Source: Fibrobacter sp. UWH4 (GTDB lineage: Bacteria; Fibrobacterota; Fibrobacteria; Fibrobacterales; Fibrobacteraceae). Taken from it: 64,000 bases of DNA. A program made the translations under genes and the position numbers. The stretch is taken from the NCBI RefSeq assembly GCF_900142475.1, contig NZ_FRAY01000002.1, positions 186,001 through 250,000 of the forward strand, given 5' to 3'. The notes below the pieces were generated by a model. That model ran no database searches and was not told where the DNA came from. It saw only the letters and a list, made by a program, of their open reading frames with translations. Below, one piece after another: positions 24,594 to 55,333 of this stretch. The stretch's first letter is position 1, and each line of letters starts with the position of its first letter.

Positions 24594-25820
24594 TCAAATG
24601 CTTTTGACAGCCTGTTCAAAGTCTTCTTTGAGATCTTCGATATCTTCTATTCCGACGCTTACGCGGACAGTGCCTTCGAATACACCGGCGTTTTCCTTCT
24701 GTTCCTTGGAACCGTGCGTAAAGATGGAGCTATCTGGGTGAATCACCAGCGTGCGCAAGTCGCCAATGTTCGTTGCGATGGTGGCGTATTTCAAATTGTT
24801 AATCAACTTGAACGCTCTTTCCTTGCTGCCCGCGTCAATCGTAAGGATGGCTCCGCCCTTGCCTCCGAGCTGACTTTGCACCAAGCTATAATAGGGGCTG
24901 CTTTTTAGAGCAGGATAGTTGACAGAAATACCTTCAAAGCCTTGCAAAAATTCAGCCAGTCGCAAGGCGTTGCTACAAAGGCGTTCCATGCGCAGACCGA
25001 GCGTTTCGAGTCCAAGCGCATTCAAGAAAGAAGTGTTCGGAGCCACGCAGCAGCCCACGTTACGCCAAATGCCGTTGCGGAGTTTGGCGAGGTAGGCGAA
25101 CTTGCTAAAGCGCTTGTATTCTTCAAGGCCTTTAAAACGGGAATAATCCCAGTTGAACTTGCCGCTATCAACAATAATGCCGCTAATGGCACTCCCATTA
25201 CCGTTGATATACTTGGAAGACGAATGTACAACGATATCTGCACCAAAATCAGAGGGATGAATAAGGTACGGAGTTGCCGTGGTACTGTCGACAATAAACG
25301 GCACGCCATTTTGGTGCGCCACATCCGCAACGCTCTGCAAATCGACAACGTTCAGTTTCGGATTTCCGATGAGTTCGGTGAAAACAGCTTTGGTCTTTTC
25401 GTTCAGTTGAGTACTCACCGTTTCGGCGGTGACTTCGGTAACAAAACGCGTCTTGATTCCGAAGGCTTCCAAATCATGGAACAAGTCGATGGTGCCGCCA
25501 AAAAGACCAGCACTTGCAATGACTTCGTCGCCAGATTGCAAAATATTCAAGAGCGAAATCGTCACTGCAGCCATGCCCGACGAACACGCCACCGCACCGA
25601 TCCCTTTTTCAAGGGATGCGATACGGCGTTCAAAAGAATCGGTTGTAGGGTTCCCGATGCGTGTATATGCAAAACCCGGAGCTTTGTTGTTGAAAACAGC
25701 TTCGAGTTTTTCTGCAGAATCATAAGCGAATGCGCTTACCTGATAAATAGGTGTAAGGGTGGATCCGCTACATCGGTCACTGTCAAAATTCTTGTGCAAT
25801 AAAGTCGTGTTAAAATTCAT
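24594..25820 (-). CDS. metY: O-acetylhomoserine sulfhydrylase, paralogue 2
   Basis: A 408-residue PLP enzyme of the Cys/Met metabolism family. The PLP lysine is K203 in HSSSKYINGNG. SGMAAVTISLLNI and FIVDSTTATPYLIHP mark the cofactor pocket. It heads the sulfate-reduction operon and has sulfur-regulon promoter B in front. In Wolinella, MetY takes sulfur from the thiocarboxylate of HcyS instead of free sulfide, and this paralogue is the best candidate for that reaction given the linked sulfite reductase and the HcyS/HcyF/HcyD genes 6 kb away. It is shorter and more divergent than paralogues 1 and 3. Confidence 0.88.
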   Translation of the reverse strand: MNFNTTLLHKNFDSDRCSGSTLTPIYQVSAFAYDSAEKLEAVFNNKAPGFAYTRIGNPTTDSFERRIASLEKGIGAVACSSGMAAVTISLLNILQSGDEVIASAGLFGGTIDLFHDLEAFGIKTRFVTEVTAETVSTQLNEKTKAVFTELIGNPKLNVVDLQSVADVAHQNGVPFIVDSTTATPYLIHPSDFGADIVVHSSSKYINGNGSAISGIIVDSGKFNWDYSRFKGLEEYKRFSKFAYLAKLRNGIWRNVGCCVAPNTSFLNALGLETLGLRMERLCSNALRLAEFLQGFEGISVNYPALKSSPYYSLVQSQLGGKGGAILTIDAGSKERAFKLINNLKYATIATNIGDLRTLVIHPDSSIFTHGSKEQKENAGVFEGTVRVSVGIEDIEDLKEDFEQAVKSI

Positions 25821-29971: not shown

Positions 29972-30382
29972 CTATACTATCACAAGACCTTCGTTGATGG
30001 CGTTGTCGCCTTCGATATGGAAGGAATTCAACACTGGATTTTCGCGGTCTTGCAGCGAAAGGATCAGGTAGCTTGCCGATGAATCGTAGGCCAGCCGTTT
30101 ATCTTCTTGCGACGGACGCGACGGCGATTCCGGATGCGAATGCCAGTTGCCCAGCGGTTTCAAGCCCTTGGTGCGAATATCCTTGATGGCGGCCAAGTGT
30201 TCCTTGGGATCAAGCGAAAAATGTTCGTTGGAATGGTCAATATTCGTGAGTAGGTACACTTCGCGAATCACCTTTCCTTCGGCGGTCTCTTCGCCCGCAA
30301 TCAGCCCGCAGGCTTCTTCCGGCAAATTCTTTTCCGCATGCGCCAGGATTTTTTCGTAGTTGTCTTTTGAAATTGTAATCAT
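29972..30382 (-). CDS. JAMM metalloprotease, HcyD/Mec-like
   Basis: A 136-residue zinc isopeptidase of the JAB1/MPN+ family. The catalytic set is complete: Glu in PEEACGLIAGE near residue 22, and H-x-H-x7-S-x2-D in HSHPESPSRPSQED. Proteins of this type trim the C-terminus of ubiquitin-like sulfur carriers or release amino acids from them (Mec with CysO, HcyD with HcyS). In this operon the carrier HcyS ends in GGG-C, one residue beyond the Gly tail, so HcyD would be needed to remove the last Cys before activation. It is the last gene of the operon. A repeat element separates it from hcyF by about 145 bases. Confidence 0.85.
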   Translation of the reverse strand: MITISKDNYEKILAHAEKNLPEEACGLIAGEETAEGKVIREVYLLTNIDHSNEHFSLDPKEHLAAIKDIRTKGLKPLGNWHSHPESPSRPSQEDKRLAYDSSASYLILSLQDRENPVLNSFHIEGDNAINEGLVIV

Positions 30383-30410
30383 TGAAAACCTCTAGACATG
30401 AAGTCGCAGC

Positions 30411-30526
30411 AAGTGGTTAGTGATTAGTGGTTGGTGGCTAGGATATGCAAAAAAGGACATCTTGATATCAGCGTTCCTGTTTACGGCCTAACCACTGTTT
30501 ACTAACCACTGCATACTAACCACTTT
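30411..30526. repeat. GTTAGTGGTTAGT-type inverted repeat, copy 1
   Basis: Short units of the type AGTGGTTAGTGATTAG on the left face their complement CTAACCACTGTTTACTAACC on the right. A diverged copy lies at 32991-33085. The element sits between hcyF and hcyD without ending the operon by a clear T-run. Confidence 0.6.
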
Positions 30527-31336
30527 CTAATGCTTCAAATCGCAAACCGCCTGTTCGTAGTCGATGAGCTGGGTGATGGTCGGGTGCGTGCCGCACACGG
30601 CGCAGTCTTCGGTATGCGTCGGGAGCTTCACCTTGCGGAATTCCATCGTGAGCGCATTGTAAGTGAGCAAGTAGCCCGTGAGCAGGTTACCTACACCGAG
30701 AATGTACTTGACGGCTTCCATCGCCTGCAGACTACCGATAACGCCGCCCATCGCGCCAATCACGCCCGCCTGCTTGCATGTCGGCACAGCATCTTTCGGA
30801 GGCGGCTCCTTGAACACGCAGCGGTAGCAAGGGCCCTGGCCCGGAACACACGTCATAAGCTGCCCCTGGAAGCGGATGATTCCCGCATGGGAGAAAGGTT
30901 TCTTCGCCATCACGCAGGCGTCGTTAATGAGGAACTTCGCCGGGAAATTATCCGTGCCGTCGATGATGAAATCGTAATCCTTGATGAGGTCAAGAATGTT
31001 TTCGCTCGTCACAAAGGTATGGTACGTAATCACCTTCACGTCGGGATTCATCGCTTCCATCGTCTCTTTCGCGGACTGCACCTTGGGCTTGCCCACATCC
31101 TGCGTGGCATGGATAATCTGGCGCTGCAGATTGGAAAGGTCGACCACGTCGGCATCGGCAATGCCGATGGTGCCCACGCCTGCTGCAGCAAGGTACATGG
31201 CTACAGGGGCACCGAGGCCACCAGCACCAATCACGAGAACTTTTGCGTTCAGGAGCTTCTTCTGGCCCTTCGCGCCCACCTCTTTCAAGATGATGTGGCG
31301 CGAATAGCGCTCCAGTTGTTCGTTAGTAAAAGCCAT
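30527..31336 (-). CDS. E1-like sulfur-carrier adenylyltransferase, HcyF/MoeB/ThiF type
   Basis: A 269-residue activating enzyme. Its nucleotide motif is GAGGLGAPVAMYLAAAGVG, followed by DVVDLSNLQRQ with the arginine finger. Two zinc-binding pairs are present, CYRC and CAVC. It adenylates the Gly-Gly terminus of the sulfur carrier so that sulfur can be added as a thiocarboxylate. The start codon overlaps the stop of the carrier gene (TAATG), as expected for tight partners. Lack of a rhodanese domain fits use of sulfide or TusA-borne sulfur. Context points to homocysteine rather than thiamin or molybdopterin. Confidence 0.88.
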   Translation of the reverse strand: MAFTNEQLERYSRHIILKEVGAKGQKKLLNAKVLVIGAGGLGAPVAMYLAAAGVGTIGIADADVVDLSNLQRQIIHATQDVGKPKVQSAKETMEAMNPDVKVITYHTFVTSENILDLIKDYDFIIDGTDNFPAKFLINDACVMAKKPFSHAGIIRFQGQLMTCVPGQGPCYRCVFKEPPPKDAVPTCKQAGVIGAMGGVIGSLQAMEAVKYILGVGNLLTGYLLTYNALTMEFRKVKLPTHTEDCAVCGTHPTITQLIDYEQAVCDLKH

Positions 31337-31542
31337 TAGCAGCCGCCTCCCATGAAGTAGAGGAACTCGACGCTGTCACCGTCCTTGAGAACGGCCTTGT
31401 CAAAAGTTCCGCCCTCGACAAACGCCTCGTTCACCGAAACGGTCACGTAAAGCGGGTTATCAATCTTCTCGGCTTCAATCAGCTCTGCTACGGTGAGACC
31501 ATCCTTGTATTCTTTCTTGTTTCCTGCAACAGTAATAATCAT
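31336..31542 (-). CDS. ThiS/MoaD-like sulfur carrier with extra C-terminal cysteine (HcyS-like)
   Basis: A 68-residue ubiquitin-fold sulfur carrier. The C-terminus reads FLYFMGGGC, so the Gly-Gly tail is followed by one Cys. In mature ThiS and MoaD, the Gly-Gly end is exposed; here a protease must first remove Cys-68. In Wolinella HcyS, a terminal residue is likewise removed by the JAMM enzyme HcyD before HcyF acts. The gene lies between tusA and hcyF, 17 bases after tusA. Its role would be to carry sulfur as thiocarboxylate to MetY for homocysteine synthesis. Confidence 0.85.
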   Translation of the reverse strand: MIITVAGNKKEYKDGLTVAELIEAEKIDNPLYVTVSVNEAFVEGGTFDKAVLKDGDSVEFLYFMGGGC

Positions 31543-31559: not shown

Positions 31560-31805
31560 TTATTCACCGACCTTTTTCACGATAAGTGTGTAAGTTCCAT
31601 CTTGATTGTCGTCGAGTTTGAGAATTTCATGGCCTTCTTCCTTGATGCTGCGCGGCACATTTTGCACCGGTTCACCATCGTTCAAGCGGATAGAAAGAAT
31701 TTGGCCTTCGTCAAGTTCTTCCAGAGCGACCTTCGCCTTCACGAAAGTGGTCGGGCACACGACATCGGTAATATCGATCGTATCGTCAATCTTAAATTCT
31801 GCCAT
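31560..31805 (-). CDS. TusA/SirA-like sulfurtransferase
   Basis: An 81-residue TusA-family protein. The persulfide Cys is in DVVCPTTFVKAKVALEEL near residue 17, with the CPxP motif varied to CPTT. It relays persulfide sulfur between proteins. It heads the operon tusA-hcyS-hcyF-hcyD behind sulfur-regulon promoter D. SirA-like genes also accompany HcyS and sulfite reductase in Wolinella. A second TusA domain occurs within the fusion protein at 54326-55333. Confidence 0.88.
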   Translation of the reverse strand: MAEFKIDDTIDITDVVCPTTFVKAKVALEELDEGQILSIRLNDGEPVQNVPRSIKEEGHEILKLDDNQDGTYTLIVKKVGE

Positions 31806-32003: not shown

Positions 32004-32963
32004 CTAAATAATGTAGTACCAGACATCGCTTTGTTTGAGTTCTTCCGTTTTATGTTTTTTATCGGTAGACACGTAATCCATTTCAAGATTCTTCATGCTT
32101 ACGCGGGTATTTGCGGCAACGGAACTCGTGATGAATGCGTTGCCACCGATGACAGCGTTTTCGCCGATGACGGTTTCGCCACCGAGAATAGAAGCACCTG
32201 CGTAAATAGTGACATTATCTTGAATGGTGGGGTGACGTTTTTTGCCGGAAAGTTTTTGGCCACCTCTTGTCGAAAGTGCGCCCAAGGTTACTCCCTGATA
32301 AATTTTCACATTTTTTCCGATAACGGCGGTTTCGCCAATCACAATGCCCGTGCCGTGGTCAATAAAGAAATACTTGCCAATAGTCGCACCAGGGTGAATA
32401 TCAATGCCCGTTTTGGAATGTGCATATTCGGTCATAAGACGTGGAAGTACAGGCACATGTAAAAGGTAAAGTTCATGGGCGATGCGGTAAATCGTTGTTG
32501 CCATGAGGCCGGGGTAGGCGAGAATGATTTCGTCAAGGCAGCCGGCGGCGGGGTCACCGTCGTAAGCAGCGTGCAAATCGGTTTCCAGAAATTCGCGGAC
32601 CTGCGGAATCTTCGCGAAGAATTCCTTGCAAATACGGTAGCTTTCAATCTTGCGTTCTTCCGATGTCATCGTGCCACGCAGTTTGCAATAATCCAAAGCG
32701 ATCGCCACCTGCTTGTGAAGGTGATAGAAAGTATCTTCGATAATGACTGCAAAGCTGTTTTTCGGGTTGTAAATTTTGTGTGTGCGGTCCCTGAAATGCC
32801 CGGGATAAACCACGCGGATTAAATTCTGCAAAATCGTTTGAATTTCGGCCTGGTCAGGTCGATTGTAGATGTCGATGTTATCGATATGCTTGTTGCCGTT
32901 GTAATCGTCGAAAATAGTTTGTACGGCTTTTGCTACTTCAGATTCTTGGATTAATTCGTGCAT
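32004..32963 (-). CDS. epsC: Serine O-acetyltransferase
   Basis: A 319-residue acetyltransferase that makes O-acetylserine, the carbon acceptor for cysteine. A helical N-terminal half is followed by hexapeptide repeats of a left-handed beta helix, with DIHPGATIGKYFFIDHGTGI and the catalytic His residues. The ATVGxxV-like GETAVIG and GVTLGALSTRGGQKL form the CoA and serine sites. Serine acetyltransferases of this EpsC type accompany family 2A encapsulins and their cysteine desulfurase. Here it is the third gene of encapsulin-desulfurase-epsC, after a repeat-filled gap of 123 bases. No CysK or CysM is in the window. Confidence 0.92.
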   Translation of the reverse strand: MHELIQESEVAKAVQTIFDDYNGNKHIDNIDIYNRPDQAEIQTILQNLIRVVYPGHFRDRTHKIYNPKNSFAVIIEDTFYHLHKQVAIALDYCKLRGTMTSEERKIESYRICKEFFAKIPQVREFLETDLHAAYDGDPAAGCLDEIILAYPGLMATTIYRIAHELYLLHVPVLPRLMTEYAHSKTGIDIHPGATIGKYFFIDHGTGIVIGETAVIGKNVKIYQGVTLGALSTRGGQKLSGKKRHPTIQDNVTIYAGASILGGETVIGENAVIGGNAFITSSVAANTRVSMKNLEMDYVSTDKKHKTEELKQSDVWYYII

Positions 32964-33086: not shown

Positions 33087-34832
33087 TTATGCAAACGTCT
33101 TCAGCGCCCTCACGAGAGCGTCGATGTCGTCCGGAGAGTTGTATAGCGCAAGCGTCGGGCGAACGGTTGTTTCGTAACCGAAATGCCTGAGCACCGGCTG
33201 TGCGCAGTGGTGACCTGTACGCACGGCAACACCGTAGGCGTCAAGCCTCTTGCCCACTTCTTCGTCGGAATAACCGTCGAGCTTGAAGGCGAGAGCAGAT
33301 GCCTTGTTGAGTGCCGTGCCTACAAGGTGCAGACCCTTGACGGTCTTCAGTTCCTTGAGGCCATACTGCAACAGTTCATGTTCCCAGCGGAATACGCAGG
33401 GCATCCCGATTTCGGAGAGATACTGGAGTGCAGCACCCAAGCCAACGGCGTCAGCGATGCTTCCGGTTCCTGCCTCGAACTTGTTCGGGATTCCGTTGTA
33501 GATGGTGCGTTCGAAGGTCACGTCGGCAATCATGTTGCCGCCGCCGTGGTACGGGCGGGCCGCTTCCAGCAATTCCTTCTTGCCGTAAACGACACCGATA
33601 CCGGTCGGGGCAAACACCTTGTGTCCAGAGAACACGAAGAAGTCTGCGTCGAGGGCGGAAACGTTCACCGGAATGTGCGCGATGGACTGCGCACCGTCAA
33701 TGAGGATTCTCACGCCGTGCCTGTGGGCGATGGCGATGAGTTCTTCAATCGGGGTGACCGTACCGAGCACGTTCGAGACATGCGTCACTGAGACGAACTT
33801 GGTGCGCTTCGTGAACAGAGCCTCGTAATCGTGCAACTTGAGCTGGCCGGTAGAATCGCAGGGAATCACCTTGATGATAGCGCCTGTTTCTTCGGCGATG
33901 AGCTGCCACGGCACAATGTTGGCGTGGTGTTCCAAAATGGAGACGATGATTTCGTCGCCCGGCTGGAGCGTCGGTTTCACGTAGGCGTTAGCCACCAAGT
34001 TGATTGCTTCGGTGGTACCGCGCACAAAAACGATTTCCTGCGAAGACGGAGCCCCGATAAAGTCGCGCACGATGTTACGGGCGTTTTCGTAGGCATCCGT
34101 CGATATGGCCGCGAGTGTATGGGCACCACGGTGCACGTTGGAGTTCTCGTTTTCGTAGTAGTACTTGAGGCGATCAATCACCACTTGCGGGCGCTGCGTC
34201 GTAGCACCGTTATCGAGCCAAACGAGCGGATGCCCGTTTACCTGTTTCGAAAGAATCGGGAAATCGGCGCGAATCTGTGCAAGTGTCTTGGAACCAATGC
34301 GGATGGATTCGTTGCGGGAATTGGAGCCGCTGTTTGCGTTGCCGGCCTTGTTCACGGAATCGCCGCCGAGAGATGTCGGAGCGTCTATCGGACGAGCGTT
34401 CTGTGCAGCCTGCGTTTTGGACACGACCTTCGGGGAGTAACCCTGTGCCGGTGCGGGCGCTGCTGGAACATCACCGAACTGCGACACAAATTCTGCTTCG
34501 GGAACCGCAGGGGCTTCCACGGAATTGAGCCAGGTATCGGCGGAATTGCCACCATAGGCAAACGGAGCCGAAGAAGTCGGCTGGTCGCCATAGGTCGCAA
34601 ACGGATGTTCCCAGTCGAATGCGGGAGTCTGGCTGATGGCAGCCGCTCCTTGGGCGGCGCTCACTCCCTGAGCCGCAGAAGCATTCTGCACTTCGGGTGC
34701 CGCGGGAGTTGCAGCATAGGCACTGTCCGTCAAGTCGGGAAAGTACTCATTTGCCAACTGCTCCAGTTCAGCCGCATTGGGAACTCCGGCGAGCTCTTCC
34801 AGCGATCTGGTATCTGGATTATTCGTAATCAT
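33087..34832 (-). CDS. Cysteine desulfurase with long disordered N-terminus, encapsulin cargo
   Basis: A 581-residue protein. Residues 1 to about 180 are of low complexity, rich in Ala, Pro, Ser, Gln and Asn, without a fold that I can see. An acidic helix-like patch AAELEQLANEYFPDLTD lies at 20-36. The SufS-type desulfurase domain follows from about 185: PLP lysine K405 in FSGHKVFAPTG and active-site Cys C543 in RTGHHCAQP. Family 2A encapsulins package desulfurases carrying exactly such N-terminal cargo-loading extensions. The enzyme takes sulfur from cysteine to give persulfide or elemental sulfur in the shell. ATG 34832 overlaps the encapsulin stop by 14 bases; a TTG at 34844 directly abuts the GAGG and is less likely. 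Confidence 0.92.
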   Translation of the reverse strand: MITNNPDTRSLEELAGVPNAAELEQLANEYFPDLTDSAYAATPAAPEVQNASAAQGVSAAQGAAAISQTPAFDWEHPFATYGDQPTSSAPFAYGGNSADTWLNSVEAPAVPEAEFVSQFGDVPAAPAPAQGYSPKVVSKTQAAQNARPIDAPTSLGGDSVNKAGNANSGSNSRNESIRIGSKTLAQIRADFPILSKQVNGHPLVWLDNGATTQRPQVVIDRLKYYYENENSNVHRGAHTLAAISTDAYENARNIVRDFIGAPSSQEIVFVRGTTEAINLVANAYVKPTLQPGDEIIVSILEHHANIVPWQLIAEETGAIIKVIPCDSTGQLKLHDYEALFTKRTKFVSVTHVSNVLGTVTPIEELIAIAHRHGVRILIDGAQSIAHIPVNVSALDADFFVFSGHKVFAPTGIGVVYGKKELLEAARPYHGGGNMIADVTFERTIYNGIPNKFEAGTGSIADAVGLGAALQYLSEIGMPCVFRWEHELLQYGLKELKTVKGLHLVGTALNKASALAFKLDGYSDEEVGKRLDAYGVAVRTGHHCAQPVLRHFGYETTVRPTLALYNSPDDIDALVRALKTFA

Positions 34833-35784
34833 AGTATTCGCCAACCTCTACGTCTTCGAGAACAGCAATGGCGTCGTCGGCAAGGATAGCCGCAGAGCAG
34901 TACAGGGAAAGCAGGTAAGAAGCGACGCCCTTGTTGTCGATGCCGCGGAAACGCACGGAGAGACCGCGAGAATGTTCGTTCTTGAGACCCGCCTGGAAAA
35001 GTCCAATCACGCCGCGCTTGGCTTCGCCAGTACGCACAAGCAGGATGTTAGTCTTGCCACCCTGGGACTTCGGATTCTTCACGCCGTCCACGAGGAGCTT
35101 GTCGGTCGGGACCAGAGGAATTCCGCGCCAGGTGAGGAACTTGCCACCGGCAATGTCCACGACAACAGGCGGCACACCGCGGCGGGTACATTCGCGTTCG
35201 AATGCGGCAATGGCACGCGGGTGAGCGAGGAAGAAAGACGGTTCCTTCCAAACCTTCGAAATGAGTTCATCGAGATCATCCGGTGTGGGGCGGCCATCAT
35301 CGCGACGCGGCTGAATGCGCTGGGAATCGGCGATGTTCTTCAACAGACCGTAATCGTCGTTGTTAATGAGCTGGCTTTCCTGACGTTCGCGGAGCGATTC
35401 GATAGCGAGACCGAGCTGTTCCTGAACCTGGTCATATGGAGAGCTGTAAACATCTTCAATCGCCGTGTTCACGTTGATAATCGTGGAGATGGAGCTCAAC
35501 TTGTATTCGCGCGGTTCGGTTTCGTATTCAACGTAGCCTTCCGGGATAATATCCGTCTTCTTGGTCTGGCTGCAAAGAACATCGAGAGGGGTTTCGCCTT
35601 CTACGACCTTGTTCACGCGGAACAGGCCAGTTTCCAGGCCCTTGAATTCAAGGAACTTGGTGAGCCACTTCGGAGTGAGGGCACCGTATTGTGGCTTAGT
35701 CTTAGTGACGTTAGCAAGGTTATAGGCGGCCTTTGCACCAAGTGCATTGATGCCGACTTTTTTATCAGTAGTTTCATTTGCCAT
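34819..35784 (-). CDS. srpI: Family 2A encapsulin shell protein (SrpI-like)
   Basis: A 321-residue HK97-fold shell protein. Resemblance to SrpI-type encapsulins is clear along the length: the N-terminal arm with GALTPKWLTKFLEFKGLETG, the segment SISTIINVNTAIEDVYSSPY, the E-loop/P-domain region with LRERQESQLINNDDYGLL, and the A-domain segment GGKTNILLVRTGEAKRGVIG. No cNMP-binding domain is inserted, so this is type 2A rather than 2B. The shell self-assembles into an icosahedral compartment. The gene is immediately upstream of and overlaps the desulfurase that bears a cargo extension, and epsC follows. In characterised family 2A systems the compartment stores sulfur. Confidence 0.93.
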   Translation of the reverse strand: MANETTDKKVGINALGAKAAYNLANVTKTKPQYGALTPKWLTKFLEFKGLETGLFRVNKVVEGETPLDVLCSQTKKTDIIPEGYVEYETEPREYKLSSISTIINVNTAIEDVYSSPYDQVQEQLGLAIESLRERQESQLINNDDYGLLKNIADSQRIQPRRDDGRPTPDDLDELISKVWKEPSFFLAHPRAIAAFERECTRRGVPPVVVDIAGGKFLTWRGIPLVPTDKLLVDGVKNPKSQGGKTNILLVRTGEAKRGVIGLFQAGLKNEHSRGLSVRFRGIDNKGVASYLLSLYCSAAILADDAIAVLEDVEVGEYYDYE

Positions 35785-35911: not shown

Positions 35912-37390
35912 TTATAGCCAGGCACCCTCGTGGGAGAACATAATATCTTTCATCGCATCGACACCTCCCTTCAGGTTGTATAGCGGTCCCGTGTAACCTG
36001 CCTCACGCAAGGTATTGATGGCGAGAACACTACGTTTACCCTGTTTGCAGATAAAAACCGTATCCTTGTTCGGATCCAGTTCTTTTTGCCTGCGGGCCAG
36101 CTGCCCGATGGGAATCACGATGGCGTTGGGGAAGCGTAAAATCGCCCGTTCATGGGGTTCGCGCACATCGATAATGGTCAGCGGGTCGCCATTGTCAATC
36201 TTCTTCGCCAGTTCTTCGGGCGTAAAGCCCTCCACCGGAATTTCGTTTTCGGTCTTGAGTCCACATAATTCATCGTAATCAATTTCCTCAACATCGGTAA
36301 TCGTCGGGCTGTTCCCGCAAATAGGGCAACTCCTGTTGCGCTCCACCTTCAAAATTCGCGAAGTCAAATACAGGCTGTCGACATGCAATAGTTTTCCGTT
36401 CAAATGTTCGCCGATTCCAAGAATCAATTTGAGAGCCTCGTTCGCCTGGATGCTTCCCACAATACCCGGGAGCGGGCTAATCGCACCACCTTCGGAGCAA
36501 GAGGGAATAAGCCCTGCCGGAGGAGGCGACGGATATTGGCAACGATAGCACGGACCACCGTCCAGATTGAAAATGCTCACCTGGCCTTCGAACTGGTAGA
36601 TTGCGCCGAACACGACGGGAATGCCATGCAGTGCACAAACGTCGTTAATCAAGTAGCGGGTTTTGTAGTTGTCGGAGCAGTCGACCACTAAATCGTAACC
36701 ATCAATCTGTTCAAGAATATTCGACGAATCCAGTTGCTCCTTTTCGGCAATAAACTCGATATTCTTGTTGATATTTTTCACCTTATCCCTGGCAGAAGCA
36801 ACTTTCGGGCGCTTGAGATCGCGAGTTCCGTAAAGCACCTGACTTTGCAAATTTTCTAGCGATACTTCGTTAAAATCAATGACCTTGATAGTTCCGACAC
36901 CGGCTGCGGCTAGGTACTGAATTACCGCAGAACCAAGTGCGCCCGCTCCTGCGACAACAACTTTTGCAGCCTTGATGCGCTTCTGCCCCTTCACACCAAT
37001 TTCTTTAAGCATCAAATGCTTGCCGAAGCGTTCCACTTCGCTGTCGTCGAAAGAAACACTCTTGCGTCGTTCATCCGAAACGAGGCTTTCGACGGTCGCG
37101 TTTTGTCCCCCTTCAACAGGTGCGCCGCCTGCGATGGCGGGCAACAACAGGATTTCTGTATCGGCAGGGAGTTCAGTATCCCAGAGTGTGTCGATTACCT
37201 GTTTTTTGCCATTGACATAAACCTGTATGAAATCCCTGAGTTTTTTATTATCGTCGTAAAAAACATTTTGTGCTTCGGGATGCAAATCTAAGAGAATGGC
37301 AAACGCCTTCCTGATACAACTTGCGGGAATTTCAACCTGGGGTGTTCCCCCAAGAAACTTTCTTAATGTTGCTGATATGTATATTTTCAC
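35912..37390 (-). CDS. Ubiquitin-like carrier / E1-like enzyme / rhodanese triple fusion
   Basis: A 492-residue single chain with three domains. Residues 1-89 form a MoaD/ThiS-like ubiquitin fold that ends LLLPAIAGG (Gly 88-89). A linker follows, with a second GG at 94-95. Residues about 115-370 form a MoeB/ThiF-type adenylyltransferase: AGAGALG (147-153), DNYKTRYLIND, and zinc pairs CYRC and CPIC. Residues about 385-492 form a rhodanese, with active-site Cys 448 in FICKQGKRS. The carrier tail is not free, so a protease must cut after the GG before thiocarboxylate can form; a JAMM protease is encoded next to it. Promoter E precedes it. It probably hands sulfur from rhodanese persulfide to the carrier. 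Confidence 0.9.
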   Translation of the reverse strand: MKIYISATLRKFLGGTPQVEIPASCIRKAFAILLDLHPEAQNVFYDDNKKLRDFIQVYVNGKKQVIDTLWDTELPADTEILLLPAIAGGAPVEGGQNATVESLVSDERRKSVSFDDSEVERFGKHLMLKEIGVKGQKRIKAAKVVVAGAGALGSAVIQYLAAAGVGTIKVIDFNEVSLENLQSQVLYGTRDLKRPKVASARDKVKNINKNIEFIAEKEQLDSSNILEQIDGYDLVVDCSDNYKTRYLINDVCALHGIPVVFGAIYQFEGQVSIFNLDGGPCYRCQYPSPPPAGLIPSCSEGGAISPLPGIVGSIQANEALKLILGIGEHLNGKLLHVDSLYLTSRILKVERNRSCPICGNSPTITDVEEIDYDELCGLKTENEIPVEGFTPEELAKKIDNGDPLTIIDVREPHERAILRFPNAIVIPIGQLARRQKELDPNKDTVFICKQGKRSVLAINTLREAGYTGPLYNLKGGVDAMKDIMFSHEGAWL

Positions 37391-37460
37391 TTTACTCTCC
37401 GTTAATTAAAAGCGCCTTTTTGCGCAAAAAAATCCCCGAAAGGGACTTTTGACAAGCAGA

Positions 37461-37528
37461 AATATAGAACTGCATAATTTGTATGTCCAATACAATAATT
37501 TTATGCAACGCTATTGAATTAATTTATA
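37461..37528 (-). promoter_or_regulatory. Sulfur-regulon promoter E (carrier-E1-rhodanese fusion)
   Basis: Minus strand: CTATAAAT, AATAG, TTGCATAAAATTA, TTGTATTGGAC (-35 at 37485-37490), 18-base spacer, TATATT (37461-37466). It lies in the gap after the JAMM gene. Confidence 0.78.
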
Positions 37529-37536
37529 GTAAAGTC

Positions 37537-37917
37537 CTATTTTTGAAAATATTGAATATCTGCAACACCATCTTTGGTTACAGAAAGAATGGCGTAAACG
37601 AGGCCAGGAATCATATAATGCAGATCCTGTTCCGAAGGGACTGCCTTACAATCGGGGTGCGAATGATAAAAACCAACAATTTCCAAACCGCTCCTTTCGA
37701 TTTCACGTTCCACCTGATAAAGGAACATAGGATCCATTTCAAAATGACAACGATTTTGCGCCCCTGTAACCAGGTTGTTCGCTTTGCGAATGTCGCTGAC
37801 AGTAATGGAGCCGTCTATTTTGCCAATCAAAATCCCGCAGCATTCGTACGGATAGGCTTGTTGAGCGTCTAGGACCATCTGCTCAGATATTTTTTCGCAT
37901 AGATTGATATTTGTCAT
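37537..37917 (-). CDS. JAMM metalloprotease paired with the carrier-E1-rhodanese fusion
   Basis: A 126-residue JAB1/MPN+ zinc peptidase. The catalytic Glu lies in PYECCGILIG and the metal motif is HSHPDCKAVPSEQD, both complete. It is the only gene between promoters E and F, and its natural target is the internal Gly-Gly of the neighbouring fusion. The start is uncertain: ATG 37932 is only three bases from a TATATT box on this strand, so I use ATG 37917, which gives MTNINLCEK; neither has a good ribosome site. It differs clearly from the other JAMM at 29972, so the two carriers seem to have separate proteases. Confidence 0.85.
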   Translation of the reverse strand: MTNINLCEKISEQMVLDAQQAYPYECCGILIGKIDGSITVSDIRKANNLVTGAQNRCHFEMDPMFLYQVEREIERSGLEIVGFYHSHPDCKAVPSEQDLHYMIPGLVYAILSVTKDGVADIQYFQK

Positions 37918-37960
37918 ACGCAATAACGGCATTAAATATAGAATGTCGACTTAAACAAAA

Positions 37961-38073: not shown

Positions 38074-38478
38074 ATGAAACAGTACAAAGTATTTGTTATT
38101 GCAAACCTTATTTTTGGCATTTTGCTGATAGCCCTTACCAAGGTAATTCTGCCTGTATGCCGCCCGATGGGCGGCGGAGTGATGCGTTGTGGGACATCGA
38201 CAACAATTGTCGCCATTTTGGGTCTCGTGTTACTTGTTGTCGCCGTAGCTGCGGTCGGGCTCCTCAAGAAAAAAATCCACATCATTTTATCTGTGGGAAC
38301 TCTTGCAATCGGCATTTTTACTTCGTTGGTGCCAACAGTAATTGTGGGAACCTGTCCGCACGCCCACATGGCGTGCCATACGACAACTGCCCCAGTACTC
38401 GCCATTACGGGCGTTGTGATAGCATTATTTGCAGCTATTAATCTGATTTACTTGAAATTAAGGAGGCGAAATGAATAA
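38074..38478 (+). CDS. DUF4418 membrane protein
   Basis: A 134-residue protein with four predicted membrane segments (about 6-26, 46-63, 69-90, 108-127). Conserved Cys residues of the DUF4418 family are present in VILPVCRPMGGGVMRCG after the first segment and in VGTCPHAHMACH after the third; both lie on the same side of the membrane. Such paired Cys sets could form disulfides or bind metal or thiols. It overlaps the FtsX-like gene by 8 bases. DUF4418 genes are often found next to FtsX/LolD-type ABC genes, so it is likely a subunit of the complex. Function unknown. Confidence 0.8.
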   Translation: MKQYKVFVIANLIFGILLIALTKVILPVCRPMGGGVMRCGTSTTIVAILGLVLLVVAVAAVGLLKKKIHIILSVGTLAIGIFTSLVPTVIVGTCPHAHMACHTTTAPVLAITGVVIALFAAINLIYLKLRRRNE

Positions 38479-39682
38479 GTCTGATGCAAATTTAATTATT
38501 GAAAATTACTTGCGAAATCCGTTCCGCAGTTTCGGACTTTCGCTTTTGATAGCAATGCTCGCCTCGTCGCTTTTGGTGGGCGGGCTTTTTTCATTTTCGC
38601 TTTCAAAGGGGCTGAACCGATTGTCGTCTCGTTTGGGAGCCGATGTCATCGTAATTCCGCAGGGGACCGAAATAAATGACCAATCGGTTCTTTTGCAGGG
38701 CGATTCCAAGTACGCTTACCTGCCCGAAGGTTCGCTGGAATTCATTCGCGGGCTTGACGGCGTAGAAATTGCAACCCCACAGTACTACTTGACCACCTTG
38801 AGCGCAAGCTGCTGCGATCAAAAAGTTTCAGTCATCGGTTTCGATCCGGCGTCTGATTTTGTGATTCAGCCCTGGATTCGCGAAGTTCTCACGGAAAGAC
38901 TCCCTCGAGGAGCGATTGTTGTCGGAAGTGAAATCCGCATAGAAGAAAAGGGAACAGTCAAGTTCTTTGATCGAGAATATCCCGTGGCGGCAACACTTGA
39001 GCCGATTGGCAACAGGCTTGACCAGGCCGTATTTGTAGATGTTTCGACCCTAGAAAGCATTCGTGAGGCAGCGCAGGCGAAAGGCGTAGTGTTCTTGTTC
39101 CGGAACGAAAATCCTGAACTGCTTACCTATTCGAGTATTTTGATTAAACTCGCTCCCAATGCCGATTTGGAACGACTGTCGCGAGAAATTCATACCCGAT
39201 TTGATGGCGTTCAGATTCGCAGCCGTAAGGATATGTTCTCTGGGCTTGAAAAATCAACAAGAATCTTGCAGATTGTGGTATGGGTGATTGTCGCATTTTT
39301 CTTAATTGTGGCAGTGGCCGCGATTGTAATTTCATTTTCACTTTCGACGCGGGAGCGCAGGCGCGAATACGCTTTGTTACGCATTATCGGATTTACGCGT
39401 AAGCGTTTAAAGAAATTAGTGCTCGCAGAATCATTCCTTGTTTCTGCTGTCGGAACATATATCGGCTTATTATTCGCAAGTGTTGCCTTTTTTACATTCC
39501 GCATTTGGATTGGCGAACATGTCGGGGTTCCATTTATTATTCCTGCATCAGCCGAAATTACAGGTGTTTACGTGGCGGTGATTTTACTTTTGCATTCGGT
39601 AGGGCCCGCTGCTGTTTACGGTGTTGCAAATAAGGTGAGTCAAATAGATGCTTACGCCGCTTTGAGGGAGGTTGAACATTGA
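38471..39682 (+). CDS. FtsX/MacB-type ABC transporter permease
   Basis: A 403-residue permease. A first membrane segment near residues 15-40 is followed by a large extracytoplasmic domain of about 230 residues, then three membrane segments (near 270, 320 and 370). This is the MacB/LolC plan for mechanotransmission rather than channel transport. The segment SLSTRERRREYALLRIIGFTR just after the second membrane helix is the coupling motif. The ribosome site AGGAGG lies inside the end of DUF4418. The extracytoplasmic domain contains SCCDQ near residue 116. The substrate is unknown; regulation points to sulfur. Confidence 0.85.
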   Translation: MNKSDANLIIENYLRNPFRSFGLSLLIAMLASSLLVGGLFSFSLSKGLNRLSSRLGADVIVIPQGTEINDQSVLLQGDSKYAYLPEGSLEFIRGLDGVEIATPQYYLTTLSASCCDQKVSVIGFDPASDFVIQPWIREVLTERLPRGAIVVGSEIRIEEKGTVKFFDREYPVAATLEPIGNRLDQAVFVDVSTLESIREAAQAKGVVFLFRNENPELLTYSSILIKLAPNADLERLSREIHTRFDGVQIRSRKDMFSGLEKSTRILQIVVWVIVAFFLIVAVAAIVISFSLSTRERRREYALLRIIGFTRKRLKKLVLAESFLVSAVGTYIGLLFASVAFFTFRIWIGEHVGVPFIIPASAEITGVYVAVILLLHSVGPAAVYGVANKVSQIDAYAALREVEH

Positions 39683-40392
39683 TTTTAAACGTTTCCAATT
39701 TATACAAGACCTATACGCGACGCGGTGAAGAATTTAACGCAGTCGATAATGTTGAATTTTTCGCATGGTCCGGCGACTTTTCGGTGATTTATGGCGAATC
39801 GGGTAGCGGGAAAAGTACGCTTTTGTCGTTGCTTTCTGGAATCAATCGCCCCTCGCAAGGTTCGATTATTTTTAACGGTATCGACTTTGCAAATCTGACA
39901 GATGCTGAACTTTCTGCAATTCGTAACGATAAAATCGGTTATATTCCGCAAGATGCAGTATTTTTGCCGCAATTTACAGTACTAGAAAACATCTTTCTCC
40001 CGCGAGCGATTCGAGACGGCAAGAAAATTGAAGTAAGAGATATTTCGGAATTGACGGATATCGATATTCTTTCGAAACTGGAAACCCTCGGCATTGCGCA
40101 TCTTGCAAATGAAATGCCTGCGGAGCTTTCGGGAGGTGAACTCAAGCGAGCTTCAATCGTGCGTGCCATGGTTAACAAGCCTGATATCGTAATAGCTGAC
40201 GAGCCGACAAGCAACCTTGACGAAGTCAACGGCAAGAAGGTTTTTGACCTGTTGGCAGAACTCGTGCATTCGGGAACATCTGTGATTGTGGCAACTCACG
40301 ATACTCGCGGATTCAAATACGGCGACCGCATCTATACAATGCTCAAGGGAAAACTCCTTCCTAGTGGAGAATCCGATTATGGCGGATTATAA
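39679..40392 (+). CDS. LolD/MacB-type ABC transporter ATP-binding protein
   Basis: A 237-residue ATPase. Walker A GESGSGKST, signature LSGGELKRASIVRAM and Walker B DIVIADEPTSNLD are intact, as in LolD and MacB. The start is TTG 39679, which overlaps the permease stop by four bases (TTGA) and has GGGAGG seven bases upstream. It powers the DUF4418/FtsX-like complex. The operon ends at a terminator at 40416. Confidence 0.88.
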   Translation: MILNVSNLYKTYTRRGEEFNAVDNVEFFAWSGDFSVIYGESGSGKSTLLSLLSGINRPSQGSIIFNGIDFANLTDAELSAIRNDKIGYIPQDAVFLPQFTVLENIFLPRAIRDGKKIEVRDISELTDIDILSKLETLGIAHLANEMPAELSGGELKRASIVRAMVNKPDIVIADEPTSNLDEVNGKKVFDLLAELVHSGTSVIVATHDTRGFKYGDRIYTMLKGKLLPSGESDYGGL

Positions 40393-54325: not shown

Positions 54326-55333
54326 CTAGATAAAATACGTCAAGTCGGATTTTTCAGTGGAGCCGAGCATGGTCGCAACACCGCCAAGTTCCACGCCGTC
54401 GATGAGTTCTTCGGGCGTAATTCCCATCAATTCCATCGACATCTGACAGGCAACGAATTTTACGCCCTTCTGCCTCGCGCTTTCAATCAGTTCTTCTAGC
54501 GAAGAAACCCCGTTTTTCTTCATAACCGCGCGAATCATCTTGGCGCCAATACCGCCAAAGTTCATGCGCGAAAGTCCGAGTTTCTTGGAACCGCGGGGCA
54601 TCATGAAGCCGAACATTTTCCCGATGAACGATTTTTTGACGCGCACCTTATCGGGCCTACGCAAAATGCTTACACCCCAGAAGGTGAAGAACATGGTAAC
54701 CGAGCGGCCCATGGCGGCAGCACCATTCGCCATGATGAACGAGGCAATCGCCTTGTCCAAATCGCCGCTAAAAACAACAAACGTCTTGTCATGTTCAAAC
54801 CCCTTCCTTTCGGGAGCGGGAAGAACATCGCGCTTTACGATGGTCGCATAGATTACGCCGTCTTTTTCGGAAAGCGATTTCAATTCATTGCCGGTACGCT
54901 GGCACCAGACATTCACATCCGAGAAGAAAGCCTTCTCGGTCGCTTCCACCTGAACTTCTTCGCCAACAGATACGCTTTTGACAGCTTCGTCCACCTTCAC
55001 GATTGGACCTGGGCACTTGAGATCCTTAGCATCCACATAGTGAATTTTCGGGACGGCGTCAAGCCCGCCTTCTACATTGTACACGTCATAATCGCGATCG
55101 GCGAGAATTTCGGCAACTTGTTCGGAACGGTCACCTGTAGAACAGAATACGTAAACAGGCTTGTCTTTCGGGATGCAATCAATCTTCTTGGACAACTCAA
55201 AAAATGGAATTAGAATAGCCCCACTTACGGGACGTACAATGGACTCGCTCGGTTCGCGAACATCCAACAAGATTGAGTTTTTGGAATCAATCTTGTGAAA
55301 ATATTTTGCAAGGAATTTTTTGACTTCGGACAT
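54326..55333 (-). CDS. Rhodanese / TusA / DsrE-like fusion protein
   Basis: A 335-residue protein with three sulfur-relay domains. Residues 1-95 form a rhodanese with active Cys 64 in FCSTGDRS. Residues 98-170 form a TusA domain, with Cys 107 in LKCPGPI. Residues about 180-335 form a DsrE/DrsE2-like domain, with a Cys in VACQMSMELMG near residue 296. All three carry the persulfide Cys, so sulfur can pass within one chain. Such fusions occur in CoA-disulfide-reductase-like and tetrathionate/polysulfide contexts. It precedes a C-S lyase that could supply the sulfur. Confidence 0.87.
   Translation of the reverse strand: MSEVKKFLAKYFHKIDSKNSILLDVREPSESIVRPVSGAILIPFFELSKKIDCIPKDKPVYVFCSTGDRSEQVAEILADRDYDVYNVEGGLDAVPKIHYVDAKDLKCPGPIVKVDEAVKSVSVGEEVQVEATEKAFFSDVNVWCQRTGNELKSLSEKDGVIYATIVKRDVLPAPERKGFEHDKTFVVFSGDLDKAIASFIMANGAAAMGRSVTMFFTFWGVSILRRPDKVRVKKSFIGKMFGFMMPRGSKKLGLSRMNFGGIGAKMIRAVMKKNGVSSLEELIESARQKGVKFVACQMSMELMGITPEELIDGVELGGVATMLGSTEKSDLTYFI

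Follow-up and report, generated by a model that had tools for sequence, protein, structure and literature searches.

The idea that a protease frees a ubiquitin-like sulfur carrier from a longer chain, put forward in the sequence-only reading of the locus described here, is known already: Iyer, Burroughs and Aravind suggested in 2006 that JAB proteins release fused ThiS/MoaD (PMC1779556). In MoaD-MoaE fusions such cuts do occur and are needed (PMC4326299, PMC8832034). MoaX of M. tuberculosis is cut between Gly82 and Ser83, which is blocked by G81A (PMC4326299), and DRJAMM of D. radiodurans, a JAMM protease, cuts the MoaD-MoaE protein DR2607 to leave a C-terminal Gly (PMC8832034). Fusions of a ubiquitin-like domain to an E1 are also on record, as the Ubl-E1-TBP proteins of Thaumarchaeota, said to be common to bacteria too (PMC2948915). 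In the CysO/MoeZR/CysM/Mec+ pathway of M. tuberculosis, MoeZR was shown to sulfurate CysO, and the source of CysO sulfur was called unknown (PMC3227635). As for desulfurase-loaded encapsulins, the discovery paper left the sulfur acceptor of the caged enzyme open, suggesting NifU/SufE carriers or polysulfide storage (PMC8049743), and the most enriched accessories of operons with this cargo are rhodaneses and serine acetyltransferases (PMC8346489).

The locus described here lies in a stretch of 64,000 nucleotides of Fibrobacter DNA, the window, and we begin with two neighbouring genes:

35912 to 37390, minus strand: FUS, a single chain of carrier, linker, E1 and rhodanese (492 aa, GTG start, one open frame)
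37124 to 37390, minus strand: CysO-like ubiquitin-fold carrier domain of FUS, residues 1-89, with LLLPAIAGG at its end and Gly89 as the predicted cleavage site
37055 to 37123, minus strand: variable linker of FUS from Gly89 to the E1, residues 90-112, differing in length and sequence among homologues
37537 to 37932, minus strand: JAMM1, a JAMM/Prok-JAB metalloprotease of 131 aa with intact motif (Prok-JAB 4e-22, complete protein)

The sequence-only reading had seen a carrier of residues 1-89 ending in GG, fused to an E1 and a rhodanese with active Cys 448, and a separate JAMM gene directly upstream; all of this stands. The carrier of FUS is followed by the linker (90 to about 112), a MoeB/ThiF-type E1 (about 113-360) and the rhodanese (about 388-485). 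Pfam places ThiF at residues 124-356 (2.9e-72) and rhodanese at 390-480 (6.6e-15), with C448 as the active Cys. The ThiF core, four zinc cysteines and the rhodanese active Cys make this part a MoeZR/Uba4-type E1-rhodanese. The zinc cysteines (C281, C284, C355, C358) and C298 are invariant in FUS homologues, and C448 is present in every homologue that reaches that position; the one gap is in a homologue cut short by the end of its contig.

The carrier region, too divergent for Pfam, gave no match there when searched alone, and the SAMP1 model of NCBIfam covers residues 5-89 weakly (3.8e-9, under the model's cut-off). We then built a profile from ten relatives of FUS and searched it against solved structures with hmmsearch. 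Over residues 3-89 it matches CysO/MoaD-type carriers, namely 4n6e_B (4.8e-5), M. tuberculosis CysO (3dwg_C, 4.6e-4) and 2g1e_A (1.8e-3); Ta0895 and the MoaD-related protein 1v8c are also among the solved carriers matched. In all three alignments printed, the match stops where Gly89 of FUS pairs with the C-terminal residue of the free carrier. The predicted model of the domain has the strand-helix pattern of a beta-grasp domain, and together with the profile matches this gives a beta-grasp fold alignable with CysO. The earlier label "MoaD/MoeB-like" should not be taken to mean molybdopterin synthesis, because MoaE (PF02391) has no match in the genome that carries FUS (11 of 14 controls were positive), and a molybdenum cofactor role for FUS is rejected.

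Inside FUS the GG is internal, and its end becomes free only after a cut. Carriers such as ThiS, MoaD, CysO and Urm1 are adenylated only on a free C-terminal Gly. We gathered relatives of FUS from the same genus, from a scan of prokaryote genomes, one for each species, and from encapsulin-bearing genomes of both phyla. This gave 73 distinct fusions in Fibrobacterota and Bacillota, with identity down to about 46%; the scan of one genome per species included near-identical loci labelled Fibrobacter succinogenes and Fibrobacterales. GG88-89 is kept in 73/73, and no fused carrier lacking it, which would speak against the precursor idea of the earlier reading, occurs among them. Over 39 aligned fusions, the mean entropy is 0.12 bits in the tail (84-89), 1.40 bits in the rest of the carrier (1-83) and 1.06 bits in the linker (90-104). 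Gly89 and Arg121 lie 23 to 31 residues apart in this alignment, and one fusion (L166) has a linker of only about five residues. The junction itself (residues 85-100) falls below pLDDT 50 and is predicted to be disordered or flexible. Since the AlphaFold model of FUS has an overall pLDDT of 66.9, with unreliable many-domain geometry, where the GG tail sits with respect to the E1 site plays no part in our argument.

An internal and never-varying GG, in a junction predicted to be flexible and beside an intact JAMM gene, is best read from these sequences as a cleavage site. Because the profile match runs up to the C-terminal Gly of free CysO-type carriers and no further, a cut after Gly89 would be the natural maturation. 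The sequence-only reading had proposed a precursor cut at Gly89 or Gly95 and three products. Its precursor fits the invariant GG88-89 and the linkage to JAMM1 given below. Gly95 is ruled out because the second GG (94-95) is not conserved, being restricted to the window and its closest kin. Two products are expected rather than three, as E1 and rhodanese stay fused. MoaX and DR2607 resemble FUS in having an N-terminal carrier in a longer chain, an internal GG and a cut after it, but there the partner is MoaE, the carrier's client and not its activating enzyme, and the pathway is that of molybdopterin. The Thaumarchaeota proteins share with FUS a ubiquitin-like domain on an E1 core, whereas no rhodanese, JAMM or encapsulin link is described for them (PMC2948915).

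JAMM1 has the E-x(n)-H-S/T-H-x(7)-S-x(2)-D motif and a JAMM fold, modelled with confidence (pLDDT 94.7). The nearest folds to the model are 2kks and PfJAMM1, the latter solved with SAMP2. Across 33 homologues E30, H90, H92, S100 and D103 are invariant although mean column identity is only 38%; the HTH variant of the H-S/T-H motif occurs in L080, L081 and others. JAMM1 evolves faster than FUS. The survey of genomes that the earlier reading had called for shows its linkage to the fusion in two phyla: 71 distinct fusions have over 700 bp of upstream sequence, and in 68 of them a JAMM1-type gene lies upstream on the same strand. The distance is 146 bp in the window, and in 12 loci the two genes overlap. 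Linkage of this order rules out chance adjacency of JAMM1. Of the three exceptions, L072 sits on a contig that starts 1.4 kb upstream of it; in the related loci L045 and L065 the distance to JAMM1 is 1.8-2.1 kb. L184 has no JAMM nearby, and is a second fusion copy in a genome that also holds a complete cassette (L183). The third, L200, is a fusion with its GG, no adjoining JAMM1 and a JAMM2-type gene (see below) about 4 kb upstream.

Directly downstream of FUS lie the genes of a nanocompartment, and further on a sulfhydrylase:

34819 to 35784, minus strand: SrpI-like type 2A encapsulin shell (PF19307 1.2e-93; NF041162 5e-144)
33087 to 34844, minus strand: SufS-type cysteine desulfurase of the encapsulin cargo type, with an N-terminal extension of about 190 residues (PF00266; NF041166)
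32004 to 32963, minus strand: serine O-acetyltransferase, EpsC/CysE type (NF041874, above cut-off)
24594 to 25820, minus strand: MetY-type O-acetylhomoserine/O-acetylserine sulfhydrylase, a homologue of which directly precedes JAMM1 in many Lachnospiraceae

The shell scores 478.8 bits against NF041162 (cut-off 380) and has only the SrpI-like domain in Pfam; the desulfurase scores 762.1 bits (6.7e-229) against NF041166, the family 2A cargo model, slightly under its cut-off of 800. A SrpI-like shell without a cNMP domain adjoining a desulfurase with a long N-terminal extension identifies the type 2A encapsulin. Neither the shell, cargo and acetyltransferase genes nor a second, unfused carrier set at 29972-31542 appeared in the sequence-only reading. 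Among fusion loci with enough sequence, the type 2A shell follows the fusion in 63/63 and the cysteine desulfurase in 59/59, usually with the serine acetyltransferase after it. In L166, from another Fibrobacterota lineage, the order is shell, desulfurase, acetyltransferase, CysM-like synthase, JAMM1 and fusion, the CysM-like gene (under the CysM cut-off) standing directly before the JAMM1-fusion pair. In L177, encapsulin, desulfurase, acetyltransferase, CysM-like and JAMM1-type genes also stand in a row.

The module appears to be lost as a whole. In Fibrobacter UBA4223, shortened remnants of JAMM1 and the fusion (KIYISATLRNFFG...) persist at L113:7388-7800 and a type 2A encapsulin is absent from the genome, which argues that the module decays as a unit, JAMM1, FUS and encapsulin being lost together. 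Four fusion-less loci of the same genus (L050-L053) have an E1 like the unfused one of the window, and within the surrounding 20 kb there is no gene for a shell, desulfurase, acetyltransferase or JAMM1. The sampled encapsulin loci, thin outside Fibrobacterota and Lachnospiraceae, include no split version in which a free carrier gene stands beside an E1-rhodanese and a type 2A encapsulin. Plasmid carriage of the fusion was set aside, the carrier-junction region having no match in a plasmid collection.

The window shares with described SrpI/CyD systems (PMC8049743, PMC8346489) the shell, the long-extension cargo, the serine acetyltransferase and a nearby rhodanese, but here the rhodanese belongs to a carrier-E1 chain with its own JAMM. 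The word "ubiquitin" is absent from PMC8346489, and "ThiF", "MoeB" and "rhodanese" are absent from PMC8049743. In the open-licence literature searched, we did not find a carrier-E1-rhodanese chain with a dedicated JAMM within a type 2A encapsulin module.

How might these parts work together? We consider it rather likely that FUS is a CysO-type pro-carrier joined to an E1-rhodanese activator, that JAMM1 matures the carrier and that sulfur is then relayed to an amino acid. What we infer is the Gly89 cut, where the sulfur comes from and what it ends up in, as follows. JAMM1, as the dedicated processing enzyme of FUS, would cut after Gly89, releasing a carrier that ends in -Gly-Gly-COOH and a MoeZ/Uba4-like E1-rhodanese; by analogy, these parts would correspond to CysO and MoeZR. 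The freed carrier would be adenylated by the E1 and turned into a thiocarboxylate by the persulfide of C448. This persulfide would most plausibly be supplied by the encapsulin-loaded desulfurase encoded next door, the obvious candidate for the sulfur source of the FUS carrier, this order of sulfur transfer being our guess from gene order alone. A sulfhydrylase would then pass the sulfur to an O-acetylated amino acid, giving cysteine or homocysteine. In Fibrobacter and Lachnospiraceae it would be of the MetY type, and in the Fibrobacterota lineage of L166 of the CysM type. The nearest sulfhydrylases in the window are MetY types, at 24594 and 40543; CysK-like genes lie elsewhere in the genome. 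Finally, JAMM1 probably has the further task of detaching the product, by analogy with Mec+ and CysO. The four activities of the mycobacterial pathway would all be present (with a CysM-like synthase in L166), but in M. tuberculosis CysO and MoeZR are separate proteins, CysO needs no internal cut and no encapsulin link is described (PMC3227635).

The genes that travel with the desulfurase nanocompartment in rumen bacteria suggest a use for the compartment's sulfur. Tentatively, we propose that the type 2A encapsulin of rumen bacteria may feed a dedicated thiocarboxylate pathway, in which sulfur taken from cysteine goes from the caged desulfurase to the rhodanese of FUS, itself part of a JAMM-split precursor, and on to cysteine or homocysteine. 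If so, the nanocompartment would act as a sulfur store or valve where amino acids are made by way of a sulfur carrier, precursor processing would add a control point, and ubiquitin-style processing in bacteria would extend from MoaD-MoaE to a chain with its own activating enzyme. Because the near-perfect linkage names an acceptor (the rhodanese C448), a carrier and a protease, the question of the caged desulfurase's acceptor becomes testable with a few purified proteins.

JAMM1 may instead act later, in the manner of Mec+. It would then do no more than hydrolyse cysteine or homocysteine off the loaded carrier, and FUS would be matured by a housekeeping protease or by JAMM2. Mec+ works in this way beside CysO and CysM (PMC3227635), and JAMM1 adjoins CysM-like or MetY genes. 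In L176, encapsulin, desulfurase, acetyltransferase, CysM-like and JAMM1-type genes stand in a row with no fusion after JAMM1, which points to a job of JAMM1 beyond, or other than, cutting FUS. With L200, where only JAMM2 is near the fusion, this also means that the pairing is not absolute. Yet maturation and product release are the same reaction after GG, so that one enzyme can do both; JAMM1 is nearer to the fusion, and more regularly there, than any other upstream gene; and JAMM2 has a pro-carrier of its own. We therefore regard a JAMM1 confined to product release as unlikely.

JAMM2 and its putative substrate belong to the second set:

31560 to 31805, minus strand: TusA-like protein (PF01206)
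31336 to 31542, minus strand: stand-alone ThiS-like carrier ending GGGC (PF02597)
30527 to 31336, minus strand: stand-alone E1 without rhodanese (PF00899 6e-88)
29972 to 30382, minus strand: JAMM2, the protease of this set (PF14464; clade separate from JAMM1)

In relatives, the stand-alone carrier ends in GGG followed by C, Q, R, AF or MR, and this variable end suggests that it too is a pro-form in need of trimming. JAMM1 and JAMM2 are not interchangeable copies, since the tree sets JAMM1 in a clade apart from JAMM2 with support of 100/100; many inner branches are weak and some JAMM1 rows long. This set is matched by row 4e of the ThiS/MoaD, E1 and JAB neighbourhoods of Iyer et al. (rows 4a-4e, PMC1779556), with TusA, ThiS-like carrier, E1 without rhodanese, JAMM2, sulfate genes and MetY. 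These rows hold the same kinds of protein as the window, but in the part of that paper at hand there is neither a carrier-E1-rhodanese triple fusion nor an encapsulin.

With a free carrier so close by, the carrier of FUS could conceivably never be cut, and be a docking or regulatory domain of an E1 that serves the stand-alone carrier at 31336-31542. Most fusion loci also hold a stand-alone carrier, and Iyer et al. judged the N-terminal Ubl of some ThiF proteins, which co-occurs with stand-alone ThiS, to have a different role (PMC1779556). We find this improbable for FUS: every fusion keeps a GG that would be useless without a free end, the tail hardly varies whereas the rest of the domain does, and the second set supplies the stand-alone carrier with an E1 and a JAMM.

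Returning to the pro-carrier reading, the two carrier sets also share a promoter-like element:

37460 to 37493, minus strand: promoter box GTATTGGAC-N15-TTCTATATTT before FUS, common to other sulfur-cluster genes

A pattern search of the whole 3.70 Mb genome finds exactly six copies of GTATTGGAC-N15-TTCTATATTT, all within the window, and none in the read-backwards control. The copies, at about 18835, 25890, 29822, 31879 and 37495 (minus strand) and 37996 (plus strand), precede respectively a porin-like gene, MetY, a sulfate-type binding protein gene, the TusA/carrier/E1/JAMM2 set, FUS and a DUF4418-transporter set. The box is kept before the same genes in other Fibrobacter. Of 12 Fibrobacter relatives, 11 have it 66-148 bp upstream of FUS. 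L049, with almost no gap between JAMM1 and FUS, has it 486 bp upstream of FUS and thus ahead of JAMM1. Since the FUS box lies between the two genes in most Fibrobacter loci, their co-transcription is not required there. Judged by its fixed spacing and free spacer sequence, the box looks like the promoter/operator of one sulfur regulon, for which the six-copy set is our candidate.

That the carrier, once freed, serves mainly to modify proteins, conjugated like ubiquitin (cf. SAMPs and Urm1) with JAMM1 reversing the conjugation, would suit a JAMM1 whose nearest solved relatives include PfJAMM1 and an E1-rhodanese like Uba4, which thiolates and conjugates Urm1 (PMC7527816), but is very improbable given neighbours that are sulfur-assimilation and amino-acid genes, several with this one box, and no E2-like gene noticed among the named flanking genes.

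The transporter set, at 38074-40392, consists of DUF4418, FtsX-like and ABC ATPase genes, is divergent from JAMM1 and has a sulfur-type box in front. Elsewhere in the window, at 54326-55333, a single protein combines rhodanese, TusA and DsrE-like domains, another many-part sulfur-relay chain.
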